From Oegoconia quadripuncta (taxonomy: Eukaryota; Arthropoda; Insecta; Lepidoptera; Autostichidae), in assembly GCA_949316235.1 (NCBI GenBank), contig OX438751.1, forward strand, positions 2,028,413 through 2,092,412: 64,000 nucleotides of DNA, read 5' to 3'. Under the pieces are notes generated by a model. It was not told the origin of the DNA and did no database searches. It worked only from the letters and a program-made list of their open reading frames with translations. The translations under genes and the position numbers were made by a program. The stretch's first letter is position 1, and every line of letters begins with the position of its first letter. Below are positions 6,651 to 63,428 of the stretch, in pieces.

Positions 6651-6834
6651 TTCAATATTGCCCCCAGTTCTCTATGAAACTCGAGGCTATCGATGATGAA
6701 CCTTCACTCGACTACAAAGGCGCAAGGAGATACGGGAAAGCTCAAGTCCCAGACCATGAGAAGCTGGACGACAGCAAAACTAGCCAATTCATCGTGTCGG
6801 CATATATCATCAATGAAATGTTTTTGCCTATAGG
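6651..6834 (+). CDS. Exon 1 (in window): repeat I turret, pore helix and start of filter
   Basis: The frame is open and ends in SAYIINEMFLPIG, which aligns without gaps to the CNG pore helix and filter SLYWSTLTLTTIG. The donor is read as TAGG|GTACAG (phase 2) because only this phase fits exon 2; the product then reads PIG-SS-VPPDDD, colinear with the CNG TIG-ET-PPPVRD stretch. A second GT at 6851 gives the wrong phase. The start is uncertain: the AG at 6649-6650 is taken, but AGs near 6636, 6646 and 6666 are alternatives. The acceptor lies just after a dispersed TIR module (about 6571-6635). No S5-bearing exon was found upstream. Confidence 0.68.
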
Positions 6835-6850
6835 GTACAGTTCTCGAGGC

Positions 6851-7712
6851 GTAAGCTCAGCTTTGCATTTGTGTGAGTGACGTCAAGCTGCTAGCGGTAC
6901 AAGAGGTGAAGTGCGGCATGTGCGCGGCAGGGAAGCGACGCGCAGCGGACACGCCGCGCCTCAGGCCGCGTTTAAACAATGCGCGGGACGCGCTGCGCCA
7001 CAAGCCGTATCTCTATCTGTGTGCACTCACAAATGCAAAGCTGATCTTACGCCTCGAGAACTGCATACCAACGAACACATCACATAGATACCTATCAAGC
7101 CTTAAAACTTTCATTTTAGTTTCCATTAAAAAAGTGGCCGTTTTTATCAATGAATAAATAAATTAATATTTGGGGCACTTATACCAATTGTCTAGTTCCA
7201 AACTAAGCAAAGCTTGTACCATGGATACTAGATAACGAACCTCACCTTCCACCTTCGACCTCATCTTCACTTAACATCAGGTGTGATTGAGGTCCAGTAC
7301 CAACCCGTTGTGCATAAAAAAACATACATAAATATTTATATAAACATCCATGACTCGGGAATAAATGTTCGTATTCACCGTACAAACATTTACTCCTCGC
7401 GGGATTCGAACCCGCAACCGTTGGTTTCGCTGACAGGGTCACTATCCACTACACCAATTGGTCATCAATAATTTGAAATTCTCGAAAATAACCGGAATTA
7501 AAGCTATTTATATGTATTATTTATTTTTGGGCTTTAGCTTTTAGGCTTTTCGGGTGAGGCCAGAGCGATTTTTTAAAATTTATTCTGTATTTAAATAGAA
7601 ATCTTAATTCATCCAATAAGGCCTCTACTGGACGGAATAAACCCTCTTAATTCTGTATATAACCCGATTTCCAGCCCCTCCCCCGTCATGATATCGTTAG
7701 TCGCGCGCGACG
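6851..7712. other. Intron segment: GC-rich patch and SINE pieces
   Basis: 6890-7010 is unusually GC-rich (GCGCGGCAGGGAAGCGACGC) and has no recognised product. 7238-7315 is a reverse SINE A end and 7395-7465 a reverse tRNA-like box (GGGATTCGAACCCGCAACCG). The remainder shows nothing recognisable. Confidence 0.45.
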
Positions 7713-7860
7713 CAGGGTCCCGATTCTCGCGCGCTCGACATTTCACTGTCAATAGACATTAGTATGTCTACCTCTTTCACACTTATAAAGGTGTGTAAAA
7801 GCGACAGATCTATGGATGTCTATCGACTGTGAAATGTTGAATGCACGAGAATCAGGGTCC
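7713..7860. mobile_element. Foldback MITE with possible 7-8 bp target duplication
   Basis: GATTCTCGCGCGCTCGACAT and TTCACTGTCAATAGACAT on the left are inverted on the right (ATGTCTATCGACTGTGAAAT and GTTGAATGCACGAGAATC). CAGGGTCC occurs directly at both edges (7713-7720, 7853-7860), like an 8-bp hAT-type duplication. Confidence 0.7.
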
Positions 7861-8037
7861 AGGAGTGAGACCCACACTCACGCTAAATATCTTTTTAACC
7901 TTAAGTAATTTCGCGGTTATGATTTAGATAGAATGTCAAGGAAACTTCACCAAGTAGAATCTATAGTTTCATTTCAAAATTGAGATCGCATAATCTCGCT
8001 ACCGACCTTTTGGGCAAGAAAGGTTCTCGAGAGCGAC

Positions 8038-8219
8038 TGTTTAGGTAAAACTGCGGCTTATTATTATTTTGTTATTTTTTTGTGCAACTAGATGGCGCCA
8101 CATGTATTTTAGAACGCGCTATCGACTTGTTCCTTCGAGTTCATAACCCTAGCGATAGAATCTTATTAGTTAGTTCATTAAAGCAGTGATATGTGTAAGT
8201 ACAGTCTTTTAATTCTCCA
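8038..8219 (+). repeat. 5' LTR of BEL/Pao retrotransposon
   Basis: Starts TGTTTAGG and ends TTCTCCA, 182 bp. I can find no difference from the 3' LTR. GCGAC precedes it (8033-8037) and follows the 3' LTR (14002-14006), a 5-bp target duplication. A likely primer-binding site starts TGGTCCTTCGTGAGTCGG at 8223. Confidence 0.95.
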
Positions 8220-8502
8220 TAGTGGTCCTTCGTGAGTCGGATTGAAGTTAGTGCAGTGCTAGTTAAATGTTAAAGTGCAATTTGGATTATAACGTGTATG
8301 TAAAGTGGTAAGAACTTTGAATTATAACTTTGAATCAAGGATTTGTATTCTGTGGACTTGTAAAATTTGTCGAAATTTATTCTTCTAGAAGAAAGTGGAC
8401 TCTATAAGTAGTGTTATTATACAGGGTGGAAAAATTCATTAAGTGATAATTTAGTTAAACCTTCTATACAATTTAATACTATTACATATTTGAACTGGAA
8501 TT

Positions 8503-11500
8503 ATGGCAGAAGCTATGGATACGTCGATTACAAGTCTGCAAAATATTTCATCTAAAATATTAAAATTATTGGTAAACACAAAGAAGTGTGCTAAAACAAA
8601 AATTACTAGAGGATATTTAGAAACAAGACAGGAAACTTTGAGTGGTTACTGGAGTGATTATACAATACAATATGGAAGTTTTGTAGCAAAGTTTAAAGTG
8701 GAGGAATTGGAATCAAGAACATTTAATTTACAAAAAAATTACGATGAGACTGAAGAAGCTTATATGGATCTTAAAACATTATTAAAAGATTCTTTATTCG
8801 AAATACAGAGAACCGATATATTCCCCACTACTAGTAAGGCTAATATGGATACTACCGAGATTATTAAACTAAGGCCGAAACTTCCACCAATACCGATACC
8901 TAAGTTCTCGGGTGACTACAAGGACTGGATGAGCTTCAGAGATTTATTTACTACTCTCATACATCACGAGAATAGCCTCACTAAAGTTGAAAAACATCAC
9001 TATTTGAGGTCTAGCCTGTCTGGTGAAGCAGAACAGCTGTTGAAACATTTCGCATTAACAGAAGCGAACTATACTGAAGCATGGAAGACACTCGAAGATA
9101 GATATGACAATAAGCGAATTATTTTGAACCACATACTCAATCGTTTACTAAATCAGAGAAAGATATCAACAGAGTCAGCACGTAGTATTAGAGACTTGTT
9201 GGATACTACTAAAGAATGTCTAAGCTCTCTTACCAATCTGCAAATAGATACCTCTACATGGGATGCGATTGTGGTACATATTGTGGTTTCAAAGTTGGAT
9301 ATGGAATCGCATAAACTTTGGGAGCAATCACTTGGGTCTTCAACAGCTATTCCTACCTTTTCTCAGTTAACCTCTTACCTGGAAAGCAGATTCAGATCCT
9401 TAGAAATGATTAATACAACGTTAATTAAAGATACACAAAAAAGAGACAACTACAATACGTCACAAATTAAACAAAAATCGGCTACTGTTAAGGCATTTGT
9501 AGCTGAAATTGATAGCACTTGCACATACTGTTCACAAACCCATTATATATGCCACTGTAAAGATTTTGCTGCATTGAACGTCCAGGAGCGTCAAGACTTT
9601 GTCAAGAATAACAGCATTTGTTTTAACTGTCTTGTCAAGGGTCACTCAGTAAGTCATTGTCGTCAAGGCACAACATGTAGAAAGTGTGGTAGACGCCATC
9701 ATACTTTACTACACTCCACAACTCTTACCAAGACAGTTCTCGCCCTTGAGGCTCAGCCTGAAGGTGACATGCCTGAAGAAGAGGCTTCTTGTAATATGAG
9801 CATGAAAATAGAAAAGAGAAATGAACAAGTCATTCTTGCTACCGCTCAAATTATGGCTCAATCTAAAAATGGCACTGCTGCCGTCCTCAGAGCTTTAGTG
9901 GATCCTGGATCTCAGGCTTCGTTTATAACGGAAGCCGCTGCACAACTACTCAGTCTTGATCGCACTTCTGTAAATGGCAAAATTACAGGAATCTCTAACA
10001 CATCAGTGGTAACCACAAAATCTATGGTAAATTTGAAATTTCACTCCACTCGACAGTCTTCACCACAATTTGAACTCAACGCTTATGTACTAAGGAAACT
10101 AACCTCTTTGCTACCTTCACAAGAGTTTCCTTTAGGTGCCTGGCCTTTAAATAAGAATATAATTCTGGCTGATCCAGAATTTCACAAGCCAGGGTCTATA
10201 GATATTTTACTTGGAGCTGACGTGCATGCCCAAATAATACTTGAAGGATTACACAGACACGAATCTTTGGTTGCCATCAACTCGAGGCTTGGCTGGTTGA
10301 TATCTGGAAGGATAACACAACCTGATTCTCAATTTAGACACAATTTAATTGTTACACATATTAAACTGGAAACAGACCAATTGCTTCGACAGTTTTGGGA
10401 AATTGAAGAATACTTGCCTCACATAAAGCCAATTACAAATTTAGAGAGAAAATGTGAAGAGCATTACAGAAACACTCACACTCGAAACAGTGATGGGCGA
10501 TATATTGTGAAGTTACCTTTTAAGGATGATCCCGTAGTGAAACTTGGAGACTCCCGAACTCTGGCGGTTAGTCGCTTGCTACAGATGGAGAAACGTTTCC
10601 TATATAAACCCGAGTTCCAGGAAGAGTACTGTAAATTTCTGGGGCAGTACGCATCACAGGGTCATATGGAAAAAATATCTGAAAAAGAGGAAAATATTAC
10701 AGAGGAAAAAGGAAGATATTACTTACCTCACCACGCTGTCGTCAGGCCCACAAGCATAAGTACTAAACTAAGAGTAGTCTTCGATGCCAGTGCTAAACCT
10801 GTACATGGAAATTCCTTAAATGATGAGCTGATGATAGGTTCATCACTGCAACAAGACATGAGAAAATTAATTACGCGATGGAGACAACACAAGTTTTGTT
10901 TAGTTGCTGACATAAAAAATATGTACCGTCAGATACTTATCTCGAAAGATGACTGTGATTATCAGCGAATCATTTGGCGTGAAACACCTCATCTGCCTCT
11001 CGAAGAATACAGGCTACTTACAGTCACTTATGGCACATCAAGTGCACCATTTTTAGCCATCAGAACATTGCACCAGCTCGCCGAAGACGAATGTACAGAC
11101 TTTCCTAAGGAGACGGAAATCCTGAAAAATGATCTTTACATGGATGACGTGATGACAGGCGCTTCAACGGAAACAGAGGCCATGTTACTACAGAAAGGTT
11201 TAACGGAGCTATTAGCTCGTGGTGGTTTTCCCTTACATAAGTGGGCATCAAATAGTGAAACAGTGCTTCATCAAATTCCTGACGACGATAAGGAATCACA
11301 GAATGTTGTGAATATAAAGGTTATGGACACTATGAAAACATTAGGTATAACGTGGAATTCACAAACAGATACTTTTGAGTTGAGTATTAATTTAGAATGT
11401 AAGACTGATGATGCTATCACTAAAAGAGCAGTATTAGCTGCTATTGCTAAGACATTCGACCCTCTTGGTTGGCTAACACCTACTATAATTGTTCTCAAAA

Positions 11501-12945
11501 TATTTATGCAAAAGTTGTGGTTAGCCGGCCTAGGGTGGGATGACGAACTACCTGTTGAACTTAAGACTGAATGGATCACTTACCTTAATAATTATGTTAA
11601 TATGAATGTCATACAATTTCCGCGATGGCTTGGTGTTTCTAATACAACAACGAAGGTCGAACTCCACGGCTTTAGTGATGCATCTTGCAAGGCGTATGCT
11701 GCTGTAGTATACCTGAGAGTTTGGGATAACAACCAAGTTCATGTTCATTTGGTCATGGCAAGGTCAAAGGTTGCTCCTGTAAAACAAGTAACATTGCCAC
11801 GACTCGAACTCTGCGGTGCAGTTTTGTTAAGCAAGATGTTGAATGACTTGAAAGCGATATTTAAAATAGATAATGAATGTGTATACGCTTGGACTGATTC
11901 CACCATAGTCCTGGCTTGGTTGCGAAAATCACCTATTACATGGGCCACGTTTGTTGCTAATCGCACTTCTGAAATCTTGACCGTCACGAATAGTAGTCAG
12001 TGGCACCATGTTCAGTCATCGAATAATCCGGCTGACTCAGCATCGAGAGGCGTCTCTCCTACTGAACTGCAAGAGTCACAACTGTGGTGGGACGGTCCAG
12101 CCTTCTTGAGTGAACCTAAAGAAGTACATTGTTTTGAACCGATTATACCCGAAACGGTTTTGGAGATTAAATCTAAAATTCACACACATGTAAGCACGAG
12201 AAATAACGATGAAATATCTACATATTTGAATAAGTTTTCTAGCATTCTAAAACTAATTCGGGTAACAGCATATTGTGTAAGATTTGTAGCGAAGTGTAAA
12301 GATAGAATTACGGACCAACACAACATTAAGGTAACACCTTCTTATTTGACCTCTGCTGAATTGAAAAATGCTTTGAACATTTGTATTCGTCTGTCACAAT
12401 CCTTAAGCTTCGAAGGGGAAATTGCTTTACTTTCTCAAGGTAAGGTTGTCCCAAAAAGTAGTAAAACGCATTCCTTGAGTCCATATATAGATAAGGACAA
12501 AATAGTTCGAGTTGGTGGGCGACTTGTTAATTCTGAGATGTCAAACTATGCTAAGTCACCGATTTTGCTGATGAATGATTGCCCTCTTGCTAAATTAATA
12601 GTTACTGATGCTCATCGTAAGACCTTGCACGGCGGTCACCAACTCACTCTCAATTATGTTCGTCAAAATTATTGGATTGTGCGTGCAAAAAATGTAGTGA
12701 AAACCGTAATCGGAAAATGTATTTCATGTTTCAAACAACGCGCCTCTCCTGTTACTCCATTTATGGGTAACCTGCCTGAATACAGAGTTAAGCCAAGTCG
12801 TCCATTTCGTACTAGCGGTGTAGACTTTGCTGGACCATTCACTTTAAAGCTGTATTCTGGTAGATGCAATAGAACATGTAAGGCTTATGTTTGTTTATTT
12901 GTATGCACTGTAACAAAGGCCATGGCATTTGGAATTAGTAAGTGA
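8503..12945 (+). CDS. BEL/Pao gag-pol polyprotein, up to a frameshift
   Basis: 1,480 codons. In order: a gag-type region about residues 125-310; zinc knuckles about 370-405 (CFNCLVKGHSVSHC, CRKCGRRHH); aspartic protease near 464 (ALVDPGSQASFI); reverse transcriptase about 740-950 with VVFDAS and catalytic YMDD near 879; RNase H near 1055 (GFSDAS) and 1128 (WTDST); integrase zinc-binding H2C2 about 1368-1416 and the first catalytic Asp near 1440. The frame ends early, within the integrase core, where the reading continues in another frame (see 12929). The protease motif has Pro where Ser or Thr is usual after the catalytic Asp. Start chosen as the first Met after a leader of about 280 bases. 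Confidence 0.93.
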   Translation: MAEAMDTSITSLQNISSKILKLLVNTKKCAKTKITRGYLETRQETLSGYWSDYTIQYGSFVAKFKVEELESRTFNLQKNYDETEEAYMDLKTLLKDSLFEIQRTDIFPTTSKANMDTTEIIKLRPKLPPIPIPKFSGDYKDWMSFRDLFTTLIHHENSLTKVEKHHYLRSSLSGEAEQLLKHFALTEANYTEAWKTLEDRYDNKRIILNHILNRLLNQRKISTESARSIRDLLDTTKECLSSLTNLQIDTSTWDAIVVHIVVSKLDMESHKLWEQSLGSSTAIPTFSQLTSYLESRFRSLEMINTTLIKDTQKRDNYNTSQIKQKSATVKAFVAEIDSTCTYCSQTHYICHCKDFAALNVQERQDFVKNNSICFNCLVKGHSVSHCRQGTTCRKCGRRHHTLLHSTTLTKTVLALEAQPEGDMPEEEASCNMSMKIEKRNEQVILATAQIMAQSKNGTAAVLRALVDPGSQASFITEAAAQLLSLDRTSVNGKITGISNTSVVTTKSMVNLKFHSTRQSSPQFELNAYVLRKLTSLLPSQEFPLGAWPLNKNIILADPEFHKPGSIDILLGADVHAQIILEGLHRHESLVAINSRLGWLISGRITQPDSQFRHNLIVTHIKLETDQLLRQFWEIEEYLPHIKPITNLERKCEEHYRNTHTRNSDGRYIVKLPFKDDPVVKLGDSRTLAVSRLLQMEKRFLYKPEFQEEYCKFLGQYASQGHMEKISEKEENITEEKGRYYLPHHAVVRPTSISTKLRVVFDASAKPVHGNSLNDELMIGSSLQQDMRKLITRWRQHKFCLVADIKNMYRQILISKDDCDYQRIIWRETPHLPLEEYRLLTVTYGTSSAPFLAIRTLHQLAEDECTDFPKETEILKNDLYMDDVMTGASTETEAMLLQKGLTELLARGGFPLHKWASNSETVLHQIPDDDKESQNVVNIKVMDTMKTLGITWNSQTDTFELSINLECKTDDAITKRAVLAAIAKTFDPLGWLTPTIIVLKIFMQKLWLAGLGWDDELPVELKTEWITYLNNYVNMNVIQFPRWLGVSNTTTKVELHGFSDASCKAYAAVVYLRVWDNNQVHVHLVMARSKVAPVKQVTLPRLELCGAVLLSKMLNDLKAIFKIDNECVYAWTDSTIVLAWLRKSPITWATFVANRTSEILTVTNSSQWHHVQSSNNPADSASRGVSPTELQESQLWWDGPAFLSEPKEVHCFEPIIPETVLEIKSKIHTHVSTRNNDEISTYLNKFSSILKLIRVTAYCVRFVAKCKDRITDQHNIKVTPSYLTSAELKNALNICIRLSQSLSFEGEIALLSQGKVVPKSSKTHSLSPYIDKDKIVRVGGRLVNSEMSNYAKSPILLMNDCPLAKLIVTDAHRKTLHGGHQLTLNYVRQNYWIVRAKNVVKTVIGKCISCFKQRASPVTPFMGNLPEYRVKPSRPFRTSGVDFAGPFTLKLYSGRCNRTCKAYVCLFVCTVTKAMAFGISK

Positions 12946-13723
12946 TTTATCTTCTTCCGCCTTTTTGGCCGCATTTAAAAGATTCACTGCCCGCCGTGGT
13001 CACTGTGCAGAAATATGGAGCGACTGTGGTACCAATTTTGTGGGTGCTTCACGAGAATTAGATTTGACTTTTAAAAATCGCAAATCTCAGACTATCGCTG
13101 AAATAGCCGAACTTATTTCAAATGATCACACTAACTGGCATTTTATTCCTCCAGGCGCTCCCCACTTCGGTGGACTTTGGGAATCTGGAGTAAAATCTGT
13201 AAAGGGTCATCTCAAACGAGTGATAGGACAGACATTACTCACATTCGAAGAATTTTGCACTCTGTTGACTCAAGTTGAAGCCTGTGTTAATTCACGGCCA
13301 CTTACCTTAATCAGTTCATCTCCAGATGAACTACCTTTGACTCCCGGACATTTTCTTATAGGAGAACCCCCTATCACTGTTCCTGAAAATGATTTAGTCG
13401 ATGTTAAACTCAGTCCTTTAGATCGTTGGCATATTGTCCAACGACTCGTACAGTCCCTCTGGCGACGATGGCAAATGGAATATTTAACTAATTTGCAACA
13501 CCGATACAAATGGTCCAAACATCAACCTGATATTCAATTGGGAACTGTAGTACTTGTAAAGGATGATCGATTGCCGCCTGGCAAGTGGCTTTTGGGAAGA
13601 GTAATTGATAGACATCCGGGTTCAGACGGTATAACCAGAGTTGTCACTTTACAATATAAGAATAATGTTTTTAAGAGACCTGTGGCAAAATTGTGCCCTC
13701 TGCCTCTGGATGCTTCTTGTTGA
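12929..13723 (+). pseudogene. BEL/Pao integrase C-terminal part, shifted frame
   Basis: Continues the pol frame after a one-base shift close to 12,925-12,945, so the visible ATG is probably not a real start. WSDCGTNFVGA carries the second catalytic Asp and HFGGLWESGVKSVKGHLKR the Glu. The end has the C-terminal BEL domain (VLVKDDRLPPGKWLLGRV). Otherwise uninterrupted, so the break is single and recent. Confidence 0.92.
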
Positions 13724-13819
13724 TTCTTTATTTGCTGATTTTGTGTTTTGTTTCCTCTTGTATAGTTACTTTATCTTATATTTAGGTTAAAGGACCAATA
13801 TAGTCCTTGCGCCGCGGGA

Positions 13820-14001
13820 TGTTTAGGTAAAACTGCGGCTTATTATTATTTTGTTATTTTTTTGTGCAACTAGATGGCGCCACATGTATTTTAGAACGCG
13901 CTATCGACTTGTTCCTTCGAGTTCATAACCCTAGCGATAGAATCTTATTAGTTAGTTCATTAAAGCAGTGATATGTGTAAGTACAGTCTTTTAATTCTCC
14001 A
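13820..14001 (+). repeat. 3' LTR of BEL/Pao retrotransposon
   Basis: 182 bp, TGTTTAGG to TTCTCCA, indistinguishable by eye from 8038-8219, followed by the target duplication GCGAC at 14002-14006. Confidence 0.95.
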
Positions 14002-15320: not shown

Positions 15321-15495
15321 ATCATCTGTGCCCCCTGATGACGATATTGAACGGTTGGCATGCCTGTTTGTAATACTGCTGGGTTGTCTGGTGATGACGG
15401 GGGCTGCTGTCGCTTCCCTGGCGCTGGTGATCAGCCTCTACATGAGACCTGAAGAAGAGTTTCGCTCCAGATTTCGCCTGATCATGGATGAAATG
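15321..15495 (+). CDS. Exon 2: repeat I filter exit, S6 and start of C-linker
   Basis: Acceptor GATTTTAG and donor ATG|GTAATA; the exon starts with one base completing a split Gly codon and ends in phase 0. The 58 following codons include VPPDDDIERLACLFVILLG, a hydrophobic S6 and a basic exit FRSRFRLIMDEM that matches the start of a C-linker. The preceding intron (6835-15320) is about 8.5 kb and contains the BEL/Pao element. A SINE ends about 20 bases before the acceptor. Confidence 0.9.
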
Positions 15496-16441: not shown

Positions 16442-16606
16442 AAAGCTACAAATGTAACTCCAGAATTGCAAGAGAAGGTGGAAACCTTCTACAGGATGTA
16501 CTGGCACAAACAGAAGGCTGTCTCTGTCACACAGCTGCTGCCGATATTTCCACATACTATTCCTTGTTCAATTTACACGGATATATATTTTGAGGCTCAG
16601 CAGAAG
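16442..16606 (+). CDS. Exon 3: repeat I C-linker
   Basis: Fifty-five codons, phase 0 at both ends (TTTGTAG| and CAGAAG|GTAGGA). VTPELQEKVETFYRMYWHKQ is a typical C-linker helix pair, comparable to the segment after S6 in CNG channels. The C-linker couples the cNMP-binding fold to the gate in this superfamily. It joins directly to exon 2 and exon 4 with family-like spacing. Confidence 0.9.
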
Positions 16607-17086: not shown

Positions 17087-17233
17087 AGCCCGATCCTCCG
17101 AGATCTTTCATATCAATTCCTGTGGGAGGTGGCAAAGAGGATGGAAACTATTCATTTTATCCCTGGTGACTCTATCATTAAGCGAGGATCCATAAAGTCC
17201 GCTATTATTTATATAGCCTATGGTGATATTGAG
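17087..17233 (+). CDS. Exon 4: repeat I end of C-linker and start of cNMP-binding fold
   Basis: Forty-nine codons, phase 0, acceptor CGTCATCAG| and strong donor GAG|GTGAGT. SPILRDLSYQFLWEVAKRM is the last linker helix; HFIPGDSIIKRGSIKSAIIY is the first part of the beta-roll with the conserved P-G-D turn, followed by AYGDIE in place of the usual E/K-G-x-V/I-E. The intron at its start sits where exon 27 starts in repeat III. Confidence 0.9.
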
Positions 17234-18166: not shown

Positions 18167-18394
18167 ATGCTGACTGCGGAAGACGACGACACACCAATAC
18201 TGCGCATGACGCGAGGGTCCATGCTCAGTCCGTGTGGCGGGTGCCCGTCCATGGCATGCGGGAAGGCATTCGTCGATATCAGGGCCGCCACCTTTTGCAC
18301 TGCACACATACTGAATGCTGCAGACCTGTGGAGGGTAGCTCAGAAGTACGGGCGTCACAACGGCCAGACCTTTATTATCGTTTCTTCGTTTGAA
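18167..18394 (+). CDS. Exon 5: repeat I cNMP-binding fold, degenerate binding cassette
   Basis: Starts after TCCATCACAG in phase 0 and continues GDIE|MLTAEDDDTPILRM, matching the beta-roll in family spacing. Where the phosphate-binding cassette (FGE...RRTA) is expected it reads LSPCGGCPSMACGKAFVDIR, so the conserved Glu and Arg are absent. FCTAHILNAADLWRVAQKYG is the expected following strand and C helix. The 3' end is placed at TTTGAA|GTTAGT (phase 0); an earlier GT near 18380 is also in phase, so the last few codons are uncertain. Confidence 0.83.
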
Positions 18395-18719: not shown

Positions 18720-18775
18720 GAACATTTTGAAAAAGTGAAGAGGCATTACAAAGGGCGAACTCCACTAGATGTCAA
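18720..18775 (+). CDS. Exon 6: short exon after repeat I cNMP fold
   Basis: Fifty-six bases between ATTTTCCAG| and GTCAA|GTAAGT, phase 0 in and phase 2 out. Encodes EHFEKVKRHYKGRTPLDV, basic and helical. Both splice signals are strong and the phases fit the exons on each side. No domain of its own. Confidence 0.75.
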
Positions 18776-19441: not shown

Positions 19442-19574
19442 ATTCAAGAGCAATATCGTGCTGTTCAAACGTAATTTGATGGCACTGAAGGAAGCCGCCG
19501 ACGAGAACGGTCAGCTGCTTCTGGCCAACACTGATTTCTTCTTAGAGATTGCTGGATCTTACATCATGAGGAAC
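19442..19574 (+). CDS. Exon 7: linker between repeat I and repeat II
   Basis: Acceptor TGTAAACAG|, donor AGGAAC|GTTAGT, one base plus 44 codons, phase 0 out. FKSNIVLFKRNLMALKEAAD continues a charged helix and then an acidic-hydrophobic stretch ending SYIMRN. It lies between the cNMP fold of repeat I and S1 of repeat II. The intron that follows contains the antisense LINE at 19622-22590. Confidence 0.78.
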
Positions 19575-19882: not shown

Positions 19883-20470
19883 CTAACACCAGACATCCTT
19901 ATCGCCTAAATAATCATCTATCCTGTAATAACCCTTCTTACACAGAGTTTCTTTAATGTGGCGTTTAAATTTCTGCTCTGTTAAACTCAATACATGTTCT
20001 GGTATTTTATTGTAAAAGCGTATGCTGTGTCCCACAAAGGATGTGCTAACCTTGCTAAGTCTAAATTGTGGAATTTCAATTTTATTTTTGTTTCTAGTAT
20101 TCAAATTATGATTATCAGAATGTTTGCGAAATAGGCATATATTTTTGCGTACATACATTATACTGTCATATATATACTGGGATGCAACAGTTAAAATACT
20201 TATTTCTTTAAACAGATCTCTTAGAGAATCACGGCAGCTTAATTTATATATTGCTCTGATTGCTCTTTTTTGTAGAACAAATATTGTTTGAATATCTGCA
20301 CCTCTACCCCACAGTAGTATACCATAAGACATAATGCTATGAAAGTAGCTAAAATAAACGAGCCTCGCTGTTTTAATGTCAGTAAGTTGTCTAATCTTAC
20401 GAACAGCATAAGCAGCTGAACTGAGCCTGCTCAATATGCGACCCCCACTGTAGTGTGGAGTCCAAAGTGA
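19883..20470 (-). pseudogene. LINE reverse transcriptase C-terminal part, shifted frame
   Basis: Continues the preceding frame after a small deletion. SRLSSAAYAVRKIRQLTD, YFSYFHSIMSYGILLWG, IFVLQKRAIRAIYKL and SIRFYNKIPEHVL are typical of the thumb and C-terminal end of this LINE family. Ends YLGDKDVWC and stop, followed by the 3' UTR. Confidence 0.88.
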
Positions 20471-22583: not shown

Positions 22584-22590
22584 TTCGGTT

Positions 22591-23385: not shown

Positions 23386-23523
23386 AGAGCTGACTCTTCG
23401 TTAAAAGACGAGGCTGACGAGATTTGCCTCCGGCCGACGTTCCCCTGCATTCTGCAACCGGAATCTTCGTTCTTGTTCGCTTGGCACCTGCTTGTCTCCA
23501 TCCTTATTCTCGTTGTGACCATT
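23386..23523 (+). CDS. Exon 8: repeat II S1
   Basis: Forty-six codons, phase 0 at both ends (CATTCCAG| and ACCATT|GTGAGC). A polar lead-in ends CILQPES and is followed by FLFAWHLLVSILILVVTI, a clear membrane helix placed as S1. The next exon supplies S2 in frame. Confidence 0.85.
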
Positions 23524-24162: not shown

Positions 24163-24292
24163 ACTCATCCGTACTACATGATATACATGAGCAATATTCC
24201 CTTAGAGTTCAGGTTCTTTGACTACGTGGTCACAGGAGTGTATGCCTTGGACCTGTTCGTCCATCTGTCCACTGGGGCCAACGTTGAAGAAG
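24163..24292 (+). CDS. Exon 9: repeat II S1-S2 loop and S2
   Basis: Acceptor TTCTTCCACAG|, donor GAAG|GTAACA, phase 0 in and 1 out. FFDYVVTGVYALDLFVHLST matches the superfamily S2 pattern (LDY..D..Y..D...R..T), including the Asp of the 'LDIF' motif. His replaces the usual basic residue after it. Confidence 0.9.
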
Positions 24293-25883: not shown

Positions 25884-26029
25884 GAGTACCAATAACGTTC
25901 GCGCGAACCTCGTCCCAGCAGGCCAGGCAGCGTGCCTTCGTGCTTGACGTGCTGGGGACTGTGCCCATGTTCGAGTTCATTGGCGACGGCCGATATGCTG
26001 GAATCAACAAACTGCTGAGGCTGCCGAAG
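25884..26029 (+). CDS. Exon 10: repeat II S2-S3 linker, S3 and start of S4
   Basis: Acceptor TATACAG|, donor CCGAAG|GTACAG, two bases plus 48 codons. RQRAFVLDVLGTVPMFEF fits S3 (F.LD.LS.IP...), then GINKLLRLPK begins S4 with K-x-x-x-R-x-x-K charges. The exon keeps the open frame past the donor for a short way, but the next exon joins it exactly in phase 0. Confidence 0.9.
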
Positions 26030-27213: not shown

Positions 27214-27350
27214 GTATTTCGGGTGCTCAAGTTAATGGAAGAGATGTGCGTGTACCACAGCAATGTGCTGCGATTTCTGTCCTACACACTGCTGATGCTG
27301 ATTGCTTGCTACCTTGTCGCATCCTTACAGCAGGGCTACATGTGCTTGAA
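27214..27350 (+). CDS. Exon 11: repeat II end of S4, S4-S5 linker and S5
   Basis: Acceptor TTTGGCAG|, donor TTGAA|GTTAGT, phase 0 in and 2 out. VFRVLKLMEEM continues S4, then NVLRFLSYTLLMLIACYLVA is a membrane helix placed as S5. S4 in this repeat has about five positive charges over exons 10-11. An AG at 27196-27197 is in another frame and was not used. Confidence 0.88.
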
Positions 27351-30507: not shown

Positions 30508-30646
30508 ATCACAAGACGTCCTCATGGCAGACGAACAGCTGGATGAATCTGCTCTACAATACAATCATGTTTGAGTGCTGCATGATTCTGTATATATTTA
30601 TGGAGGCGGTCTACTCCGCCACCATCATGGTCACTACTGCTCTGAA
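30508..30646 (+). CDS. Exon 13: repeat II filter remainder and S6
   Basis: Acceptor TACTGTGCAG|, donor CTGAA|GTAAGT, phase 1 in and 2 out. The join gives SFITFT-NHKTSSW: where family members have TTIGE or TTVGYGD, this repeat has no glycine at all. NTIMFECCMILYIFMEAVYS follows as S6, in family spacing. Loss of the filter glycines makes normal K+ selectivity by this repeat unlikely. Confidence 0.88.
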
Positions 30647-31764: not shown

Positions 31765-31882
31765 GGACAACTACACTTCCTGCATCGACAACGTCAAGCA
31801 TTTCCTGATCAGGAATAAAGTGGACCCAATCCTTCAAAGCCGGTTCATCACCTATCTGCAGTTATGCTGGCATACAGATAAG
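31765..31882 (+). CDS. Exon 14: repeat II C-linker, first part
   Basis: Acceptor TATTTCTAG|, donor GATAAG|GTACTT, one base plus 39 codons, phase 0 out. DNVKHFLIRNKVDPILQSRF fits C-linker helices (I..Y...R.....L..R...Y..Y.W), ending LQLCWHTDK. Confidence 0.88.
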
Positions 31883-32906: not shown

Positions 32907-33020
32907 GCGTACGCCATGACTCAGAAGCGTTCTATATTCTACGATCTGCCGCCTCATGTGTACGAGGACATAGTCGCAAGGCAGCGATGCAAATATCTTC
33001 TCTGTGTACCATTTATGCAG
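32907..33020 (+). CDS. Exon 15: repeat II C-linker, second part
   Basis: Thirty-eight codons, phase 0 at both ends (TTTCACTTAG| and ATGCAG|GTTGGT). FYDLPPHVYEDIVARQRCKY is the classical LP..L...I......, and the exon ends LLCVPFMQ, matching the VPLFQ that precedes the cNMP fold in the family. Confidence 0.9.
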
Positions 33021-34011: not shown

Positions 34012-34143
34012 TACCTCCACAAGGAAGACCTAAAGAAGGCGTCGTCCAAAGCCGCCTTGTTCTACACGTCCCCCAATGAGATCCTGCTCAACACCGGTGA
34101 CGTTAGCAACGAGATCTTCATTATCAAGAGGGGCATATGCGAG
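34012..34143 (+). CDS. Exon 16: repeat II start of cNMP-binding fold
   Basis: Placed after TTTACATGCCACAG| because VPFMQ|YLHKEDLKKASSKA is then colinear with VPLFQNADPNFLTALLTKL of the family. A second in-phase acceptor at 33989-33990 would add seven codons and lies at the very edge of an inserted SINE (33745-33988). SPNEILLNTGDVSNEIFIIK and RGICE are the beta-roll with the usual N/G-D-V and I-K-R-G signature. Strong donor GAG|GTGAGA. Confidence 0.87.
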
Positions 34144-36848: not shown

Positions 36849-36927
36849 ATATTTGACCCAGATAAAAAGGTAGCGATCAACACAATATACAAGAAAGGGT
36901 TCTTCGGTGATCTAGAGTGCTTATTGC
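36849..36927 (+). CDS. Exon 17: repeat II cNMP fold, binding cassette
   Basis: Acceptor TGTTTTCAG|, donor TTGC|GTAAGT, 26 codons plus one base. VAINTIYKKGFFGDLECLL corresponds to the G.YFGE..LL cassette, with Asp replacing the Glu that normally contacts the ribose. Its first junction (after G-I-C-E) sits where the exon 4/5 junction sits in repeat I. Confidence 0.88.
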
Positions 36928-38849: not shown

Positions 38850-38980
38850 GCTTCCCTTCCTACTACACAGTTCGTGCCGTCACTCATGTGCAGGTCTTCT
38901 CGATATCCAGGAAATATCTGCCAAATGTTAATGAGATACCGCGGTTCATGGACGCTATCGCTTATGCCAAGGAACAGCCG
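38850..38980 (+). CDS. Exon 18: repeat II cNMP fold, last strands and C helix
   Basis: Acceptor CACTTGCAG|, donor CAGCCG|GTACGA, phase 1 in and 0 out. SYYTVRAVTHVQVFSISRKY aligns to the RRTA.VRS....D.F.LS strand region; the binding Arg position is Tyr here. FMDAIAYAKEQP is the following helix. A MITE (37775-38611) ends about 240 bases upstream. Confidence 0.88.
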
Positions 38981-39715: not shown

Positions 39716-39873
39716 GAATTTCACCGGATCCAGCTACGTAGAGAACCGTTCATATCCTACGAGCCTCCGCCTCCACCTTCAAACAGGGCTAAGTTCCCAC
39801 TACCCAGGAAGTTCGAGTCGGATTCTGCCTTCATGTATCCATTCGCACGGCTTGGATTCCTTTCAATCCTCAG
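39716..39873 (+). CDS. Exon 19: linker between repeat II and repeat III
   Basis: Acceptor TACATTTAG|, donor CTCAG|GTATCC, phase 0 in and 2 out, 52 codons plus two bases. Polar and proline-rich: ISYEPPPPPSNRAKFPLPRK, then SAFMYPFARLGFLSILR. Likely a cytosolic linker; no domain recognised. The junction with exon 20 is in frame. Confidence 0.83.
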
Positions 39874-40930: not shown

Positions 40931-41358
40931 ATTAGGTCCTTACCTATGAAATTGGCGTTTTTGTATGAAGAATTTCATTAAGACTGATTTCTCCATACAA
41001 ACATTTTTGTTATTTTTTTTGGGAACGTCAAATCCAAATTTAGCTAAACTTTGTGTGTATTATCGGATAACATTAAGTTAAGTATAGGCAGCGTTAATTT
41101 TTAAAAGTAACCACTTTATAAAAGCAACAGCGAATCTAAGAAATGATTATGGGACGCACATGAAAAGAGCTCTGTTCAAATTTTTTTTATTATGTGATTT
41201 AGCCCAGAAACTAAAAAATATTTCATGTGAAACCTTGAAACAATAGTCCATTTTCCAAATAAAAAACAAATTTGGATATAGCTTTGAAATCGCAGGAATT
41301 GAGTATACATATGATTAACGAAGAAAAAAAACTCCAATTTCATAGGTAAAGACCCAAT
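40931..41358. mobile_element. MITE, short copy of the 37775 family
   Basis: ATTAGGTCCTTACCTATGAA to TTTCATAGGTAAAGACCCAAT, 428 bp. Nearly identical to the ends of 37775-38611, with about 400 bp of the interior missing. Confidence 0.9.
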
Positions 41359-41467: not shown

Positions 41468-41650
41468 GTACATCTTCCCCCGGTTCACAATTCGGCCCGA
41501 CGGAAAGTACATCACGAGATATGAGTGGTTGCGTGCTCTATGCGCGCTCACCTCCACCCTCATATTCCCCAGCTACATGTACATGGTACTGGAGTACCCA
41601 TGGCTGTATGAATTGCTAGTGGTCCTGGATTTCACTGCCTATTGTGATAT
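41468..41650 (+). CDS. Exon 20: repeat III S1 and S2
   Basis: Acceptor AATCCTTCAG|, donor GATAT|GTAAGG, phase 2 in and out. FTIRPDGKYITRYEWLRALC resembles the lead-in to S1 in HCN/KCNH/CNG channels (I.P.......W). Two hydrophobic stretches follow, ALTSTLIFPSYMYMV and YELLVVLDFTAYCD, the second carrying the S2 LD motif. The acceptor is embedded in the tail of a SINE (about 41362-41455). Confidence 0.9.
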
Positions 41651-43154: not shown

Positions 43155-43348
43155 ATACTTAATATTTCTTGACGTGTATGGCTACGACAGAATACAGCGC
43201 ATGCTGGTGGGTTACTTCAACGAAGCCGGAATCCTCGTATATCATCCTGCGAGCACAGCAGCTCACTATATCAAGGGAGCCTTCCTGATTGACTTGCTGG
43301 GCGCTTTACCAACTGAATATCTTCAGTCGGTACGAGAGAAAAATTCAG
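43155..43348 (+). CDS. Exon 21: repeat III S2 end, S2-S3 linker and S3
   Basis: Acceptor GTAGTCAG|, donor TTCAG|GTAAGG, phase 2 in and 1 out. YLIFLDVYGYDRIQRMLVGY completes S2; the linker reads GILVYHPASTAAHYIKGAF, matching G.L..dp..ia..Y; LIDLLGALPTEYL fits S3. The following intron (43349-47693) is almost filled by a 4-kb TIR transposon. Confidence 0.92.
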
Positions 43349-47693: not shown

Positions 47694-47826
47694 CTGAAGG
47701 TTCATACGCAGTTGTGAGTGGAACGAGGCAGTATCTGATGCTGAATCGTTTGCTCCAGCTGTACCGTGTGCCTGGGGCTATGGACATCCTCTCCAACTAC
47801 ACCTCGAGAGAGGATATCATACTGGT
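47694..47826 (+). CDS. Exon 22: repeat III S4
   Basis: Acceptor ATTCTTACAG|, donor CTGGT|GTTAGT, chosen because exon 23 needs phase 2. RQYLMLNRLLQLYRVPGAMD is S4 but with only two or three well-spaced arginines, fewer than repeats II and IV. The frame stays open past the donor to 47968, which is intron read-through. Confidence 0.87.
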
Positions 47827-50003: not shown

Positions 50004-50164
50004 AATAAAAGCCATCCCCCTGTTTATGGTGTTAATTAACGTGCTGACTTCACTATTGATCTTCTATTCTGTCGAGATACATGAACCGGTTGGGAATGTG
50101 CCCTGGCAAATTATACCACATAACGATCCAGGTGGATCCTGGCTACATTTATTTCAAAATGCAT
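50004..50164 (+). CDS. Exon 23: repeat III S5 and turret
   Basis: Acceptor CTTTTTCGCAG|, strong donor GCAT|GTAAGT, phase 2 in and 1 out. IPLFMVLINVLTSLLIFYSV is S5, followed by a long turret with HNDPGGSWLHLFQNA. The phase-1 intron just after G-S-W-L matches the exon 31/32 junction after S-S-W-L in repeat IV. Confidence 0.9.
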
Positions 50165-52112: not shown

Positions 52113-52259
52113 TCCGATTCAACATGACTGAAACTCCTACCAATCTCCTCCTCACGGTTTACTTCTGGGTGGTGTATGAGACCACGACAACTGGGTACAA
52201 CACGTTCAGGGGCAGCAACTTGAATATTGTGATGGTACTCTTCTTAGGAATGGCTGCCG
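52113..52259 (+). CDS. Exon 24: repeat III pore helix, filter and start of S6
   Basis: Acceptor TTATCTCCCCAG|, donor GCCG|GTAAGT, phase 1 in and out. TVYFWVVYETTTTGYNTFRG aligns to the pore helix and filter; TTTGYN keeps the GY of K+ channels but has Asn for the second Gly. A possible glycosylation site NMT precedes it. NIVMVLFLGMAA starts S6. Confidence 0.92.
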
Positions 52260-53544: not shown

Positions 53545-53686
53545 GCGCCATGATGACCACCTACTTCGCTGTACGCATCATCAGTATCCGCGCCAACGTC
53601 AACAAAATGTTAGCCTCATACCAGGAGCACATGAAGGACATTAACATATTCATGAAGAAGGAGAAGCTTTCTCCGGAACTGCAAGG
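53545..53686 (+). CDS. Exon 25: repeat III S6 end and C-linker start
   Basis: Acceptor TCACCTCCAG|, donor CAAGG|GTGAGA, phase 1 in and 2 out. MMTTYFAVRIISIRANVNKM ends S6 and runs into the C-linker; FMKKEKLSPELQ matches V..ELQ.rv in repeat I exon 3 (TPELQ). This exon lies between two inverted copies of one MITE (52525-52833 and 55472-55774). Confidence 0.92.
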
Positions 53687-53945: not shown

Positions 53946-54825
53946 GAAATGCTGTGTATCCGAATTCGAAAGTGAATGACCGCTTTTTCAGGGGCGAAGA
54001 TAGATCTTACCACTTGGTTAATCTTCGATAAAAGGAGTTTATTACTTTTAATTATGTCGAAGATGTCAATAGATAAATACATCATTTTATTTACCCCTCT
54101 GCGTTCACAGACATACACTCACAAATAAAAAAATAAAAAATTTAAACACAAATAAAAATAAGGAAACTGAAAATGCAAACAGACAGTGTGTGCCGCAGTA
54201 GCACAAATGGGTAACTCACATCACTCAAAGAGCGATACACAAACAAACAGACAAACAAATACACATCATTGCACAACACAAAATAAAATACAGTTTCAGA
54301 AAAGTGGTAAGAATAATGTACAATTTGGCGACCTTATCACTAAAATATTGAAATAGGTAGGTTGTGCGGTATTAAATAGGGATGCAGATACAAGCTACAT
54401 GAATAAATTTCATATATTTACATACACACACATACATAGATCAATAGACACATATACCTACTTAAACATAACATCTATAAAATAACAACAAAATACAAAC
54501 GTAAATATATAGGTGTACTAAATAAATATTTATTGATATATAAAATAATAATAATAAGCGACAACAGGGTTGTGCTAAGGTATAGAGAGAAGATAAGAAA
54601 AGAGCACAGATTAAAACACCAGGAAATGCTCTTTGACGGCGATTTTGAAAGCATTCAAAGTTTGAGCTCGTCTGATACACTTGTAACTGCCAGTATTTTT
54701 CCAGATTTTAAAAATGTTTAAAAGTAGAGTTTTTTAGGATTAAGTAGAGCTTCGTTGCGAACCAAATATGTGCAAGGGCAAAGAAAAACTTACAAGCGAT
54801 ACCCATAACTCTAAAAAAATAGTGA
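53946..54825. other. Intron segment, nothing recognised
   Basis: AT-rich with many ACACA and TACATA runs. No channel-like block. Confidence 0.4.
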
Positions 54826-55301: not shown

Positions 55302-55437
55302 CGAAGTGACTGCGTATTACCAATACAACTGGGACAAGACAGGCGGGACCGACTACCGGGACGTCCTCAAGCTGTGCGACCAAATCACCCTGCGTACGGA
55401 CGCAATCCTACATCTCTACGGGAACACATTTGCTAAG
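55302..55437 (+). CDS. Exon 26: repeat III C-linker, second part
   Basis: Acceptor GATTTGTTTAG|, donor GCTAAG|GTGACT, phase 2 in and 0 out. AYYQYNWDKTGGTDYRDVLK followed by CDQITLRTDAILHLYGNTFA fits the family pattern Y..Y.W.....D....L..LP..LR..I..HL. The frame is open beyond the donor into a MITE copy. Confidence 0.92.
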
Positions 55438-57247: not shown

Positions 57248-57447
57248 TGTCCCATATTGCACCATTGTGATTTATCCCTTCTGCGTGTGATGGGACGTTC
57301 CGTGCGCAGCGTGTACTTCCTCTGTGACACGTGCATTATCCAGAAGGATGACGTCATTCCTGAAATGTACTTCGTGGACTACGGCAACGTTGACGTCAGG
57401 GAGAGCAAGGATATATATAATACTATCGCAAAGTTACCTAGGGGCAG
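57248..57447 (+). CDS. Exon 27: repeat III cNMP-binding fold, first part
   Basis: Acceptor TTTCCTACAG|, donor GGCAG|GTAAAT, 66 codons plus two bases. CPILHHCDLSLLRVM matches VPLF...D...L; IIQKDDVIPEMYFVDYGNVD is the beta-roll (I...GD...EMYFI..G.V). KLPRG starts the cassette, finished in exon 28. The acceptor lies where exon 4 begins in repeat I. Confidence 0.92.
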
Positions 57448-58201: not shown

Positions 58202-58367
58202 CGTTTTTGGTAATATGGAAAATGTCCCCGAGAGCCGCTCCCCCAACGCACTTGTCGCCACCAGCAACGTCCACCTTCTCCAAATCAACACACAGCTATT
58301 TTACAGCATCATCCTCGACTTCCCCACGGTTGGAGTGCTTCTGAAAAAATATAGACGTAAACGGGAG
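58202..58367 (+). CDS. Exon 28: repeat III cNMP fold, cassette and C helix
   Basis: Acceptor CCTTCTGTGCAG|, donor CGGGAG|GTTTGT, phase 2 in and 0 out. The join reads LPRGSVFGNMENVPESRSPN: the family FGE is FGN and the R-R-T-A is not present. ATSNVHLLQINTQLFYSII continues the fold; a basic end KKYRRKRE leads to the linker. Confidence 0.9.
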
Positions 58368-58478: not shown

Positions 58479-58816
58479 AACTACATAATGGGCAGAATTG
58501 GTGATGGATCCTCAGGGATGATGAAGGATTCGAAAGAGAGGCATCTAAGTTCTCCTCTGATAAGTATGAAACATGACGGATTAGTGAATTACTTCTCCGC
58601 TAACAACCGAATGGTTCAGTTCTACCTGATCTTCATCTCCCTCGTCTGCGTGTACGCAGATATCTACAACGCTGCCTTCAAAGACAATGGCACTATATTG
58701 ATCGTGTGTCTATATGTTTTGGACATCGCGTTCTTTCTTAAAATAGTGCTGAACTATATAGTGCCTTATGTCGTTCATGAAGACACGAGGAATATATTAA
58801 TGGATAGCAGGCAGAA
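58479..58816 (+). CDS. Exon 29: linker, repeat IV S1 and S2
   Basis: Longest exon seen, 112 codons plus two bases, acceptor AATTTTTCCAG|, donor CAGAA|GTGAGT. A polar linker with SSGMMKDSKERHLSS is followed by RMVQFYLIFISLVCVYADIY (S1) and LIVCLYVLDIAFFLKIVLNY (S2 with the LD motif). The intron before it is only 111 bases, the shortest here. Confidence 0.92.
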
Positions 58817-60640: not shown

Positions 60641-60701
60641 ATTATTATTTACTTATATTTTATATAAGATGTGTATGTATGTTACAATTAAATGATTACA
60701 G

Positions 60702-60834
60702 GTATATTAAAGAAGAATTCAAGTATGATATAGTGTCATGTCTCCCAATAGAGTTGCTCTGCTTAACGAAAAAAACGACTGAAGAGAAATGGCGTCTTTT
60801 CGCTATGCTCAGGCTTAATAGATTTTGCAGAATT
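60702..60834 (+). CDS. Exon 30: repeat IV S2-S3 linker, S3 and S4
   Basis: Acceptor AATGATTACAG|, donor AGAATT|GTAAGT, phase 2 in and 0 out. EEFKYDIVSCLPIELLCL is S3 (F..D.vS.lP.ell); WRLFAMLRLNRFCRI is S4 with R-x-x-R spacing. A tRNA-like SINE (60385-60640) ends about 60 bases before the acceptor. Confidence 0.92.
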
Positions 60835-61737: not shown

Positions 61738-61918
61738 GCGACGATATACATGTCCCTAAAACGACACCAGGAGAGACTCTCCATCAACCTAGTATTCACC
61801 ACTGTGGTGAGCGTCTCCATCTGGTTTTCGTTGTTCATGCACGTCGTCTCCTGCATTTGGTATGCCATCGCTGCTCGCGAGGACGAGGATAGCCCCAAGT
61901 CCTCTTGGTTATATACTG
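61738..61918 (+). CDS. Exon 31: repeat IV S4-S5 linker, S5 and turret
   Basis: Acceptor ATGTTCCAG|, donor TACTG|GTATGT, phase 0 in and 1 out. TIYMSLKRHQERLSINLVF is the linker; SIWFSLFMHVVSCIWYAIAA is S5 with the H..aC.wY.I signature seen in HCN/KCNH/CNG channels. The turret contains DEDSPKSSWLYT. Confidence 0.94.
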
Positions 61919-62685
61919 GTATGTGCTTTATTATTGTTAAATAATTAAATCCTCATCATATCAGCCACCTCCACTGCTGAACATAGGCCTCCCCCAGAGA
62001 TTTCCAGAGTAACTGGTTGGAAGCGGACTGCATCCAGCGATTTCCCGCGACCTTCATCAGGTCGCAAATTTTGTACAAACCAATATGTGACTACCTATCA
62101 GCCCTCAAGAATATACATAAATACGAACCAGCTAACCAGCTTTTTTTGTGGAGCAGTGATCAATATGTATCCCAAACAACCGAATAATCGATATTTTTCA
62201 CGTGGTGCAACTTAATGTGGAGTTGGAGACAGTTCGCAATGACGCTGACGTAAGCATTTGAAGTTCGGATGGCGGAAGACATATCGAAATGCTAGAGACC
62301 CGAGATTGTAAAAAGGGAGCAAAGTAATATTTTACGGTTAAGATGTATTTTCATCCTTTATGTAACAATCTACTTTTTTTCTGGGAACACGATCACTAAT
62401 AAAATTATATCGTCCAGGTAGACTTAGTGTTAAAAGCTAAATATCTTCGAAACGGCTTAAACGACTTCCATCAAATATAGCTAAGACCTTATCTCTTGGT
62501 TTAATCTTAAATATTTATAAAAAAATTGAAAATTTAGAAAACCCTCGAAAGACTATGATAACATCGAAATCACCAAAAAACTGTGTTAAGAGCTCAAATC
62601 TTCGATACGGCTTACCTAAATGATCATCAAACATGACTGGAAACTGTCCCTTCATTTAGACAAAAGCTGGACACGCACCCACACA
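61919..62685. other. Intron segment with one dispersed repeat piece
   Basis: 61955-62060 (CACCTCCACTGCTGAACATA GGCCTCCCCC, GGACTGCATCCAGCGATTTC) is a repeat also seen near 830-960. The rest is not recognised. Confidence 0.5.
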
Positions 62686-62689
62686 CACA

Positions 62690-62728
62690 AACATACGCAC
62701 ACACTCGCACACACACGCACACACACAG

Positions 62729-62820
<92 letters not shown>

Positions 62821-62945
62821 GCGCGCACACACACACACACGCACGCACACAAGCACACGCACGCACGCACACACACACACACACGCACACAAGCACACGC
62901 ACGCACGCACGCACGCAGCCACACACACGCGCACACACACACAAG
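62690..62945. repeat. (AC)n compound microsatellite
   Basis: A long pure AC block with interspersed GCAC and CGCGCG. All long open frames over it (Thr-His or Cys-Val) are artefacts. Confidence 0.98.
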
Positions 62946-63318
62946 AGGGCGCTTCAGTGGTCAAGAAAGAACGTTAAAAAATAATACAAACAAATGTACC
63001 TTCATCATCTCAGCCTGTAGACATCCCGCTACAGGGATATCGGCCTTCCCTCGTATAATAGTCCACAACGCTGGCCCAATGCGGGTTGGGGACTTCTCAT
63101 TTCCTTCACCATTTATGAGCAGTCGGATGTAAGAAATGTACCTTAATTCCGACATAATTTAGTGTTTTTCATTCTACATCAACCTGTTCCGTCTGAATCG
63201 GCACTGCACCCAACGTCATGAAACACATGGTACCCGTCGTTTTTTTTCGGGTGTTACTTATAAAGTGTAGGTAACACCAAATCATTAAGTAGGTACAATT
63301 AATATTTCTTATTTCCAG

Positions 63319-63428
63319 ACGACGGCGAGCCCTTCTGTAACAGCTCGTATATTTGCGCAATGTACTTTACAATGACCACCTTTACGCACAAGGGTGTCGG
63401 CGACATCCTACCGAGGAAACAGAAGGAG
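63319..63428 (+). CDS. Exon 32: repeat IV pore helix and filter
   Basis: Acceptor CTTATTTCCAG|, donor AAGGAG|GTGAGA, phase 1 in and 0 out. SSYICAMYFTMTTFTHKGVG then DILPRKQKE: the filter reads T-H-K-G-V-G-D, closest of the four to the K+ channel T-x-G-Y-G-D. NSS in the turret could be glycosylated. The gene must continue beyond this window with S6, C-linker and cNMP fold. Confidence 0.93.

Follow-up and report, generated by a model that had tools for sequence, protein, structure and literature searches.

A gene for a predicted single-chain, four-repeat cation channel in the moth Oegoconia quadripuncta and its insect relatives, likely without the K+ selectivity of CNGK

In this study, we analyzed a stretch of 64,000 nucleotides from the moth Oegoconia quadripuncta (GenBank assembly GCA_949316235.1, contig OX438751.1, positions 2,028,413 to 2,092,412 of the forward strand; hereafter the window). 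With a probability of roughly 70%, it contains most of one gene whose product is a single-chain, pseudo-tetrameric cation channel, likely without the potassium (K+) selectivity of the known CNGK channels. CNGK (tetraKCNG) channels likewise carry in one chain four repeats, each with membrane segments S1-S6 and a cyclic nucleotide-binding domain (CNBD) (PMC4749565, PMC7576140, PMC8835908), and occur in sea urchin, zebrafish, Ciona, cnidarians and choanoflagellates. Comparison of the window protein with its relatives in Lepidoptera and in a distant group, termed beetle-type here, suggested that they likely form a branch of the four-repeat CNBD channels found in insects, with an asymmetric pore. 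The breadth of this family (Lepidoptera and beetle-type proteins), the common order of its repeats and the lost K+ signature are new here.

One gene with four channel repeats

On the plus strand, the final splice model joins 34 exons between positions 1131 and 63428 (Table 1). Every intron is GT-AG and the joined translation has 1684 codons with no stop; all 33 junctions match in phase, which is weak as sole evidence, as exon ends were partly picked for phase. Exon cores were obtained from a three-frame reading of the plus strand and joined by splice-site scores and phases, and the model was then corrected using the proteins of relatives. Because phase had partly guided the choice of exon ends, the main weight for the exon chain lies in collinear homology: a protein of Galleria mellonella (P0001) matched all 34 exons in order (tblastn), 31 of them with E < 2e-5, the three weakest being those for the repeat I pore (0.001), repeat I alphaC1 (0.002) and the second CNBD part of repeat II (0.47). 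A sequence-only reading of the same DNA had proposed a single gene at 6651-63428 with 32 exons and 31 matching junctions. From the repeat I pore exon onward our model has the same counts, an agreement in exon number and end point rather than exon by exon. The end at 63428 stands, whereas the start moves to an in-phase acceptor at 6668, 17 bases downstream, and the gene reaches two exons further upstream (1131-1259, S3-S4, and 4052-4167, S5, of repeat I). The repeat order described there (I to its CNBD, II and III whole, IV from S1 to the pore) was recovered in our independent splice model, in which repeat I begins at S3 and repeat IV ends after the pore at the window edge. In complete relatives, repeat I opens with S1-S2 and repeat IV continues through S6, C-linker and CNBD (by eye), and sequences and alignments show four repeats, each consisting of S1-S6, C-linker and CNBD (membrane segments placed by alignment and models).

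That the four repeats lie in one frame of one gene, as had been proposed, is supported by the occurrence of uninterrupted orthologs in many lepidopteran species and by transcript-sized beetle-type contigs. It could be argued that separate adjacent genes, one per repeat, merely splice in phase by chance, since the introns are large and contain transposon insertions, and several models in the database (P0034, P0035 and P0038) are incomplete or split. Such an arrangement is highly improbable, considering that the linker exons between repeats I and II, II and III, and III and IV are conserved and in frame, that unbroken relatives comprise 1.7-2.8 thousand residues, and that transcript-sized contigs were found in the beetle-type group.

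The identity of the repeats was further examined by profile and structure searches. The first joined translation (1616 aa) matched KCNH, CNG, SthK, HCN and plant K+ channels in PDB, with EAG1 as the best hit (E = 2.6e-24). In the joined translation, repeats II and III each had a CNBD match above the Pfam cut-off and repeat IV had one to Ion_trans; the CNBD of repeat I reached only E = 0.013. Pfam CNBD stretches numbered three in Galleria, three in Danaus and four in each of two beetle-type proteins. An NCBIfam scan gave only stray CNBD-type matches, all below cut-off, and a sub-cut-off Pfam match of repeat IV to SpoIISA_toxin (E = 4.5e-4) was read as a chance likeness of membrane segments. A crude hydropathy scan of the partial window protein counted 14 membrane segments. 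AlphaFold predictions for an Ostrinia protein (repeats I and II with the beginning of III; mean predicted local distance difference test score (pLDDT) 64.5, predicted template modelling score (pTM) 0.52) and a Mythimna protein (repeats II-III; mean pLDDT 70.9, pTM 0.63) matched CNG, HCN and KCNH structures in Foldseek with probability 1.00 and best E values of 3.3e-17 and 4.6e-15, respectively.

Relatives and spread of the family

A search with an earlier model of the window protein (E <= 1e-10) retrieved 44 proteins: P0044 and 43 others, presumably lepidopteran judging from their species names. The final window protein and P0001 (2080 aa) are 59% identical over 1683 residues, and identity to the 30 lepidopteran proteins with an alignment of at least 1300 residues ranged from 47.5 to 59.8%. 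Eight proteins were found with P0044 as query, comprising P0044, six of its kind and one butterfly protein. The label beetle-type for these seven distant proteins comes from three of them, one from Popillia japonica and two from Onthophagus taurus, both scarab beetles. In the other four, the frames are 1878-2015 residues long and the longest contigs that hold them have 6582-7678 bases, so that 534-2041 bases remain for introns and ends together; we infer that these contigs are transcript-sized and fit spliced mRNA. P0044, P0045 and P0048 seem to begin after S1-S2. Identity between the window protein and the beetle-type proteins was 22-23%, which agrees with the earlier description of this channel as very diverged; its suggested lineage specificity does not hold for the window or for Lepidoptera alone, as the family is also present in the beetle-type proteins. 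It should be noted that the GenBank-derived name of the Danaus relative is tetrameric potassium-selective CNG channel, so kinship to CNGK had already been noted by annotation. At the very strict cut of 1e-100, a protein search returned eight proteins, none of which was named CNGK.

Two further observations concern individual relatives. Cydia amplana has two long relatives (P0028 and P0033) on contigs of unequal size, possibly a duplicated locus. The models of P0006, P0008, P0010, P0011 and P0015 omit the repeat I S3-S4 exon that is present in the window and in Galleria, probably reflecting annotation gaps.

We also considered whether the gene is a pseudogene in this genome. The window departs at 28 of 402 positions (7.0%) that are otherwise at least 95% conserved, the second highest rate among 23 rows, and window-specific changes occur in filters II and IV. 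Decay of this kind is nevertheless very unlikely, given 34 exons without a stop or a broken splice site and an annotated relative, P0017, that departs even more (45 of 404 positions, 11.1%). The rates in the 22 comparison Lepidoptera were 0.3% to 11.1%, a range that includes the window.

Selectivity filters

Filters were compared in the window, in 26 of the 43 lepidopteran proteins (repeat I being readable in 25 of these) and in all seven beetle-type proteins; the 17 lepidopteran proteins outside the comparison were mostly shorter or partial models, with at least one long protein (P0033) among them. The K+ signature Tx[VI]G[YF]G was found in no row of any of the four repeats (window; Lepidoptera n = 25, 26, 26 and 26; beetle-type n = 7 each). 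The window filters are LPIGSS in repeat I, TFTNHK (no glycine) in II, TTTTGYN in III and THKGVGD in IV, that of repeat I being one residue shorter than in EAG1 in the PDB-search alignment. Each repeat showed its own pattern across Lepidoptera, in moths and butterflies alike (rows P0017 and P0018 appear misaligned at repeat I, and P0019 at repeat IV): IPIG in 22 of 25 for repeat I (IPIGPS in 15), T[FV]T.H in 24 of 26 for repeat II, TGY in 25 of 26 for repeat III (the next residue being N in 12 and G in 6) and GVGD in 19 of 26 for repeat IV, where GxG was present in 22 of 26. G[YF]G was confined to repeat III (6/26 Lepidoptera, 1/7 beetle-type) and does not occur in the window. None of the four lepidopteran patterns was found in the beetle-type rows, in which GxG occurs in repeats I, II and III of P0048 and in repeat III of P0050, with none in repeat IV.

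Such filters might belong to a central pore that does not conduct, the chain acting as a voltage- or nucleotide-dependent sensor or offering a proton path through its voltage sensors, as described for the HCN-like channel HCNL1 of zebrafish, in which voltage sensing, gating and permeation all take place inside the voltage sensor (PMC11700363). GxG is indeed absent from filter I of all 25 Lepidoptera and present in only one of seven beetle-type proteins, and in filter II it is present in 2/26 and 1/7, respectively. We regard a silent pore as unlikely: pore helices and filters differ little from one lepidopteran family to another, a conservation of odd letters that, at the level of sequence, speaks against free decay, and the S4 segments have few Arg or Lys residues (about two to five in the rows viewed, by eye).

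Phylogeny of the repeats

A tree was built from 48 repeats of the window, five Lepidoptera, four of the seven beetle-type proteins and eight single-repeat references. For each of repeats I, II, III and IV, the lepidopteran and beetle-type sequences fell into a single clade (support 100/99, 99/98, 100/98 and 100/99, respectively), in a tree where window repeat IV covers 48% of the columns and where AKT1 was flagged as a long branch. As same-numbered repeats group across both lineages, the four-repeat plan is older than the split between them. When the references were omitted (40 rows), the best tree paired I with III and II with IV, as reported for the CNGK repeats (PMC7576140).

This pairing and the common four-repeat plan would be expected if the insect protein were simply a CNGK ortholog whose K+ conduction persists despite its odd filter letters. 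Support for the pairing was only 61/5 and the alternative pairings were not rejected (p-AU, from the approximately unbiased test, 0.466 and 0.234); moreover, canonical GYG or GFG is a feature of CNGK (PMC4749565), whereas the full signature is missing from every insect row counted. An ordinary K+-conducting ortholog is thus unlikely.

Intron positions were also compared between repeats. Window repeats I and III share the aligned position of a phase-0 intron (before SPILRD and CPILHH, respectively), and the CNBDs of window repeats I and II share that of another. These common positions may have been left by an internal duplication in a gene that already contained introns.

Nucleotide-binding sites

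On the basis of the alignments, the nucleotide sites are likely mostly degenerate. In repeat III, the Arg of the phosphate cassette is present in the window, in 25 of 26 Lepidoptera and in all seven beetle-type proteins, and the Glu position of the FGE motif holds Asn in the window, Asn (22) or Asp (4) in the 26 Lepidoptera and Asn in 7/7 beetle-type proteins. The remaining repeats were judged by eye. Lepidopteran repeat II has an aromatic residue where CNG channels have Arg, and no Glu after FG; FGE was seen in repeat IV of four lepidopteran rows (P0006, P0007, P0008 and P0015). In repeat I, the CNBD motif is lost in Lepidoptera; in beetle-type proteins it is near-canonical, with GE in six of seven and GD in P0050, and three proteins have Arg at the basic position, three have Lys and one has Pro. 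It may be that the repeat in which a nucleotide site was retained differs between the lineages. Because repeat III keeps its Arg and sea urchin CNGK is reported to function through the third CNBD alone (PMC4749565), repeat III appears to be the best candidate for nucleotide control, if any remains. Zebrafish CNGK is reported to be gated by pH and not by nucleotides (PMC4749565).

Exon coordinates and intron contents

Table 1 Exons of the channel gene in the window (tblastn values from the search with P0001)
Feature	Coordinates	Strand	Evidence and remarks
Repeat I, S3-S4	1131..1259	+	tblastn E=1.4e-5; splice model
Repeat I, S5	4052..4167	+	tblastn E=2.4e-7; splice model
Repeat I, turret and pore; filter LPIG|SS, intron within filter	6668..6834	+	tblastn E=0.001; weak donor score -0.2; filter resembles Lepidoptera IPIG
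Repeat I, S6 and C-linker start	15321..15495	+	tblastn E=1.3e-20
Repeat I, C-linker	16442..16606	+	tblastn E=2.7e-18
Repeat I, CNBD part 1	17087..17233	+	tblastn E=1.3e-15
Repeat I, CNBD part 2; FGE motif missing	18167..18394	+	tblastn E=1.3e-20; Pfam cNMP_binding E=0.013, below cut-off
Repeat I, CNBD end (alphaC)	18720..18775	+	tblastn E=0.002
Linker I-II	19442..19574	+	tblastn E=9e-12
Repeat II, S1	23386..23523	+	tblastn E=4e-12
Repeat II, S1 end and S2	24163..24292	+	tblastn E=2e-16
Repeat II, S3-S4	25884..26029	+	tblastn E=3e-17
Repeat II, S5	27214..27350	+	tblastn E=3e-16
Repeat II, turret and pore helix	29657..29784	+	tblastn E=1e-7
Repeat II, filter end and S6; filter TFT|NHK, lacking glycine	30508..30646	+	tblastn E=4e-9
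Repeat II, C-linker part 1	31765..31882	+	tblastn E=5e-12
Repeat II, C-linker part 2	32907..33020	+	tblastn E=8e-11
Repeat II, CNBD part 1	34012..34143	+	tblastn E=2e-13; Pfam cNMP_binding E=4.4e-12 for repeat in earlier model
Repeat II, CNBD part 2 (FGD)	36849..36927	+	tblastn E=0.47, weak alone; phase and protein context fit
Repeat II, CNBD part 3	38850..38980	+	tblastn E=4e-12
Linker II-III	39716..39873	+	tblastn E=4e-15
Repeat III, S1-S2	41468..41650	+	tblastn E=2e-19
Repeat III, S2-S3	43191..43348	+	tblastn E=1e-17; open frame vs hERG E=0.002, HCN1 0.006; weak acceptor 0.3
Repeat III, S4	47694..47826	+	tblastn E=1e-10; weak donor 0.1
Repeat III, S5 and turret	50004..50164	+	tblastn E=3e-15
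Repeat III, pore and S6; filter TTTTGYN	52113..52259	+	tblastn E=2e-15
Repeat III, S6 end and C-linker start	53545..53686	+	tblastn E=8e-15
Repeat III, C-linker	55302..55437	+	tblastn E=3e-17
Repeat III, CNBD part 1	57248..57447	+	tblastn E=1e-17; Pfam E=8.2e-8 for repeat in earlier model
Repeat III, CNBD part 2 (FGN, conserved Arg)	58202..58367	+	tblastn E=9e-31, match joint with next exon
Linker III-IV and repeat IV S1-S2	58479..58816	+	tblastn E=9e-31, match joint with preceding exon; Pfam Ion_trans E=7.9e-15 for repeat IV
Repeat IV, S3-S4	60702..60834	+	tblastn E=7e-9
Repeat IV, S5	61738..61918	+	tblastn E=3e-14
Repeat IV, pore; filter THKGVGD	63319..63428	+	tblastn E=4e-9

Several candidates were dropped in the course of modelling. 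Exons 860-1049, 41296-41345 and 54448-54659 of earlier models were given up when relatives or a better frame revealed 1131-1259, 4052-4167, 39716-39873, 32907-33020 and 55302-55437. The acceptors at 6631 (repeat I pore) and 43155 (repeat III S2-S3) were replaced by 6668 and 43191, respectively, and a candidate for repeat II S6 at 29923 by 30508-30646.

Two retroelements were identified in the introns. A BEL/Pao-type retrotransposon (8038-14001) lies between the pore and S6 exons of repeat I; its coding part consists of two overlapping frames (8494-12945 and 12914-13723), with Peptidase_A17, DUF1759, Integrase_H2C2 and DUF5641 above cut-off and RVT_1 below. It was probably inserted recently, as its direct repeats (8038-8219 and 13820-14001) show no difference over 182 nt. 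Between repeats I and II, the intron carries a retroelement of the non-LTR (long terminal repeat) type on the minus strand (19883-22595), with RVT_1, endonuclease matches just under cut-off and overlapping frames at 20397-22595 and 19883-20515. The frames 8494-13723 and 20397-22595 were excluded as parts of the channel, being retroelements. Tandem arrays, comprising about 55 copies of a 20-mer, TCTAC x31, TTTAA x79 and AC-type repeats, are also intronic (1752-2860, 36443-36595, 42543-42939 and 62671-62943). No tRNA genes were found in the window by a scan with bacterial settings.

Discussion

The insect family resembles several known channel types and differs from each. CNGK repeats are nearly identical according to a 2018 review (PMC6259924), whereas the insect repeats and their filters are strongly unlike each other. 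KCNH (EAG, hERG), HCN and CNG channels share the order of S1-S6, C-linker and CNBD, together with the sequence and fold matches in PDB, but have one repeat per chain (PMC7576140) instead of four units in one frame. Four mutually unlike repeats in one chain are also found in Nav, Cav and NALCN channels (PMC6259924). In contrast to these, the insect family carries CNBDs, with three to four Pfam stretches in each of the four proteins scanned. Nav, Cav and NALCN channels are not known to have a CNBD behind each S6.

A fuller account, which we put forward as a tentative proposal, is that an ancient four-repeat CNBD channel was kept in insects and gave up the K+ filter, acquiring a different filter in each repeat, an asymmetric non-K+ pore and one or no working nucleotide site. 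In the main interpretation given at the outset, each repeat would supply one quarter of a single pore. With filters unlike in each repeat, the four-fold coordination of K+ by carbonyls of the TVGYG type would be broken, and the pore would then likely discriminate weakly between cations or be tuned to a different ion. Gating would proceed via the C-linkers, with nucleotide control either lost or kept in repeat III only. A role in sperm would be a guess from the precedent of CNGK.

Several points weigh against the main interpretation. The channel is so far known through gene and protein sequences and predicted models, and its putative kinship to CNGK was drawn from published descriptions of CNGK rather than from CNGK sequences. 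A single clade of all four repeats relative to single-repeat channels was neither shown nor rejected (p-AU 0.293). GYG in repeat III of 6/26 Lepidoptera and GxG in repeat IV of 22/26 mean that part of a K+-like filter persists, and degenerate filters would fit a non-conducting protein too. Of the 24 membrane segments expected, the crude hydropathy scan recovered 19 in P0001 and 22 in P0049. Confidence of the AlphaFold models was moderate, the models cover two to three repeats and never four, and the best Foldseek rows had a target-normalised template modelling (TM) score of only 0.61 (Ostrinia) and 0.53 (Mythimna).

A literature search, judged mostly from listings, found no description of an insect CNGK or an insect four-repeat CNBD channel. 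Neither 'insect' nor 'arthropod' occurs in the main text of the CNGK paper PMC7576140, and no mention of the Galleria locus name LOC113513870 was found in the literature searched. For expression, the main texts of papers on Galleria sperm morphs, the comparative Lepidoptera sperm proteome and Pieris sperm contained none of the terms looked for.

With four filters that are unlike one another, conserved and non-canonical, the insect branch would amount to a set of concatenated channel mutants made by nature. Such a set would allow one to test what number of canonical filters is required in a K+ channel, and whether the CNG superfamily evolved asymmetry in the way that Nav and Cav channels did. 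If the asymmetric pore is indeed not selective for K+, this family would represent a CNG-type answer to the Nav/Cav plan and, if the channel is expressed in sperm, it would have a bearing on the control of insect sperm.

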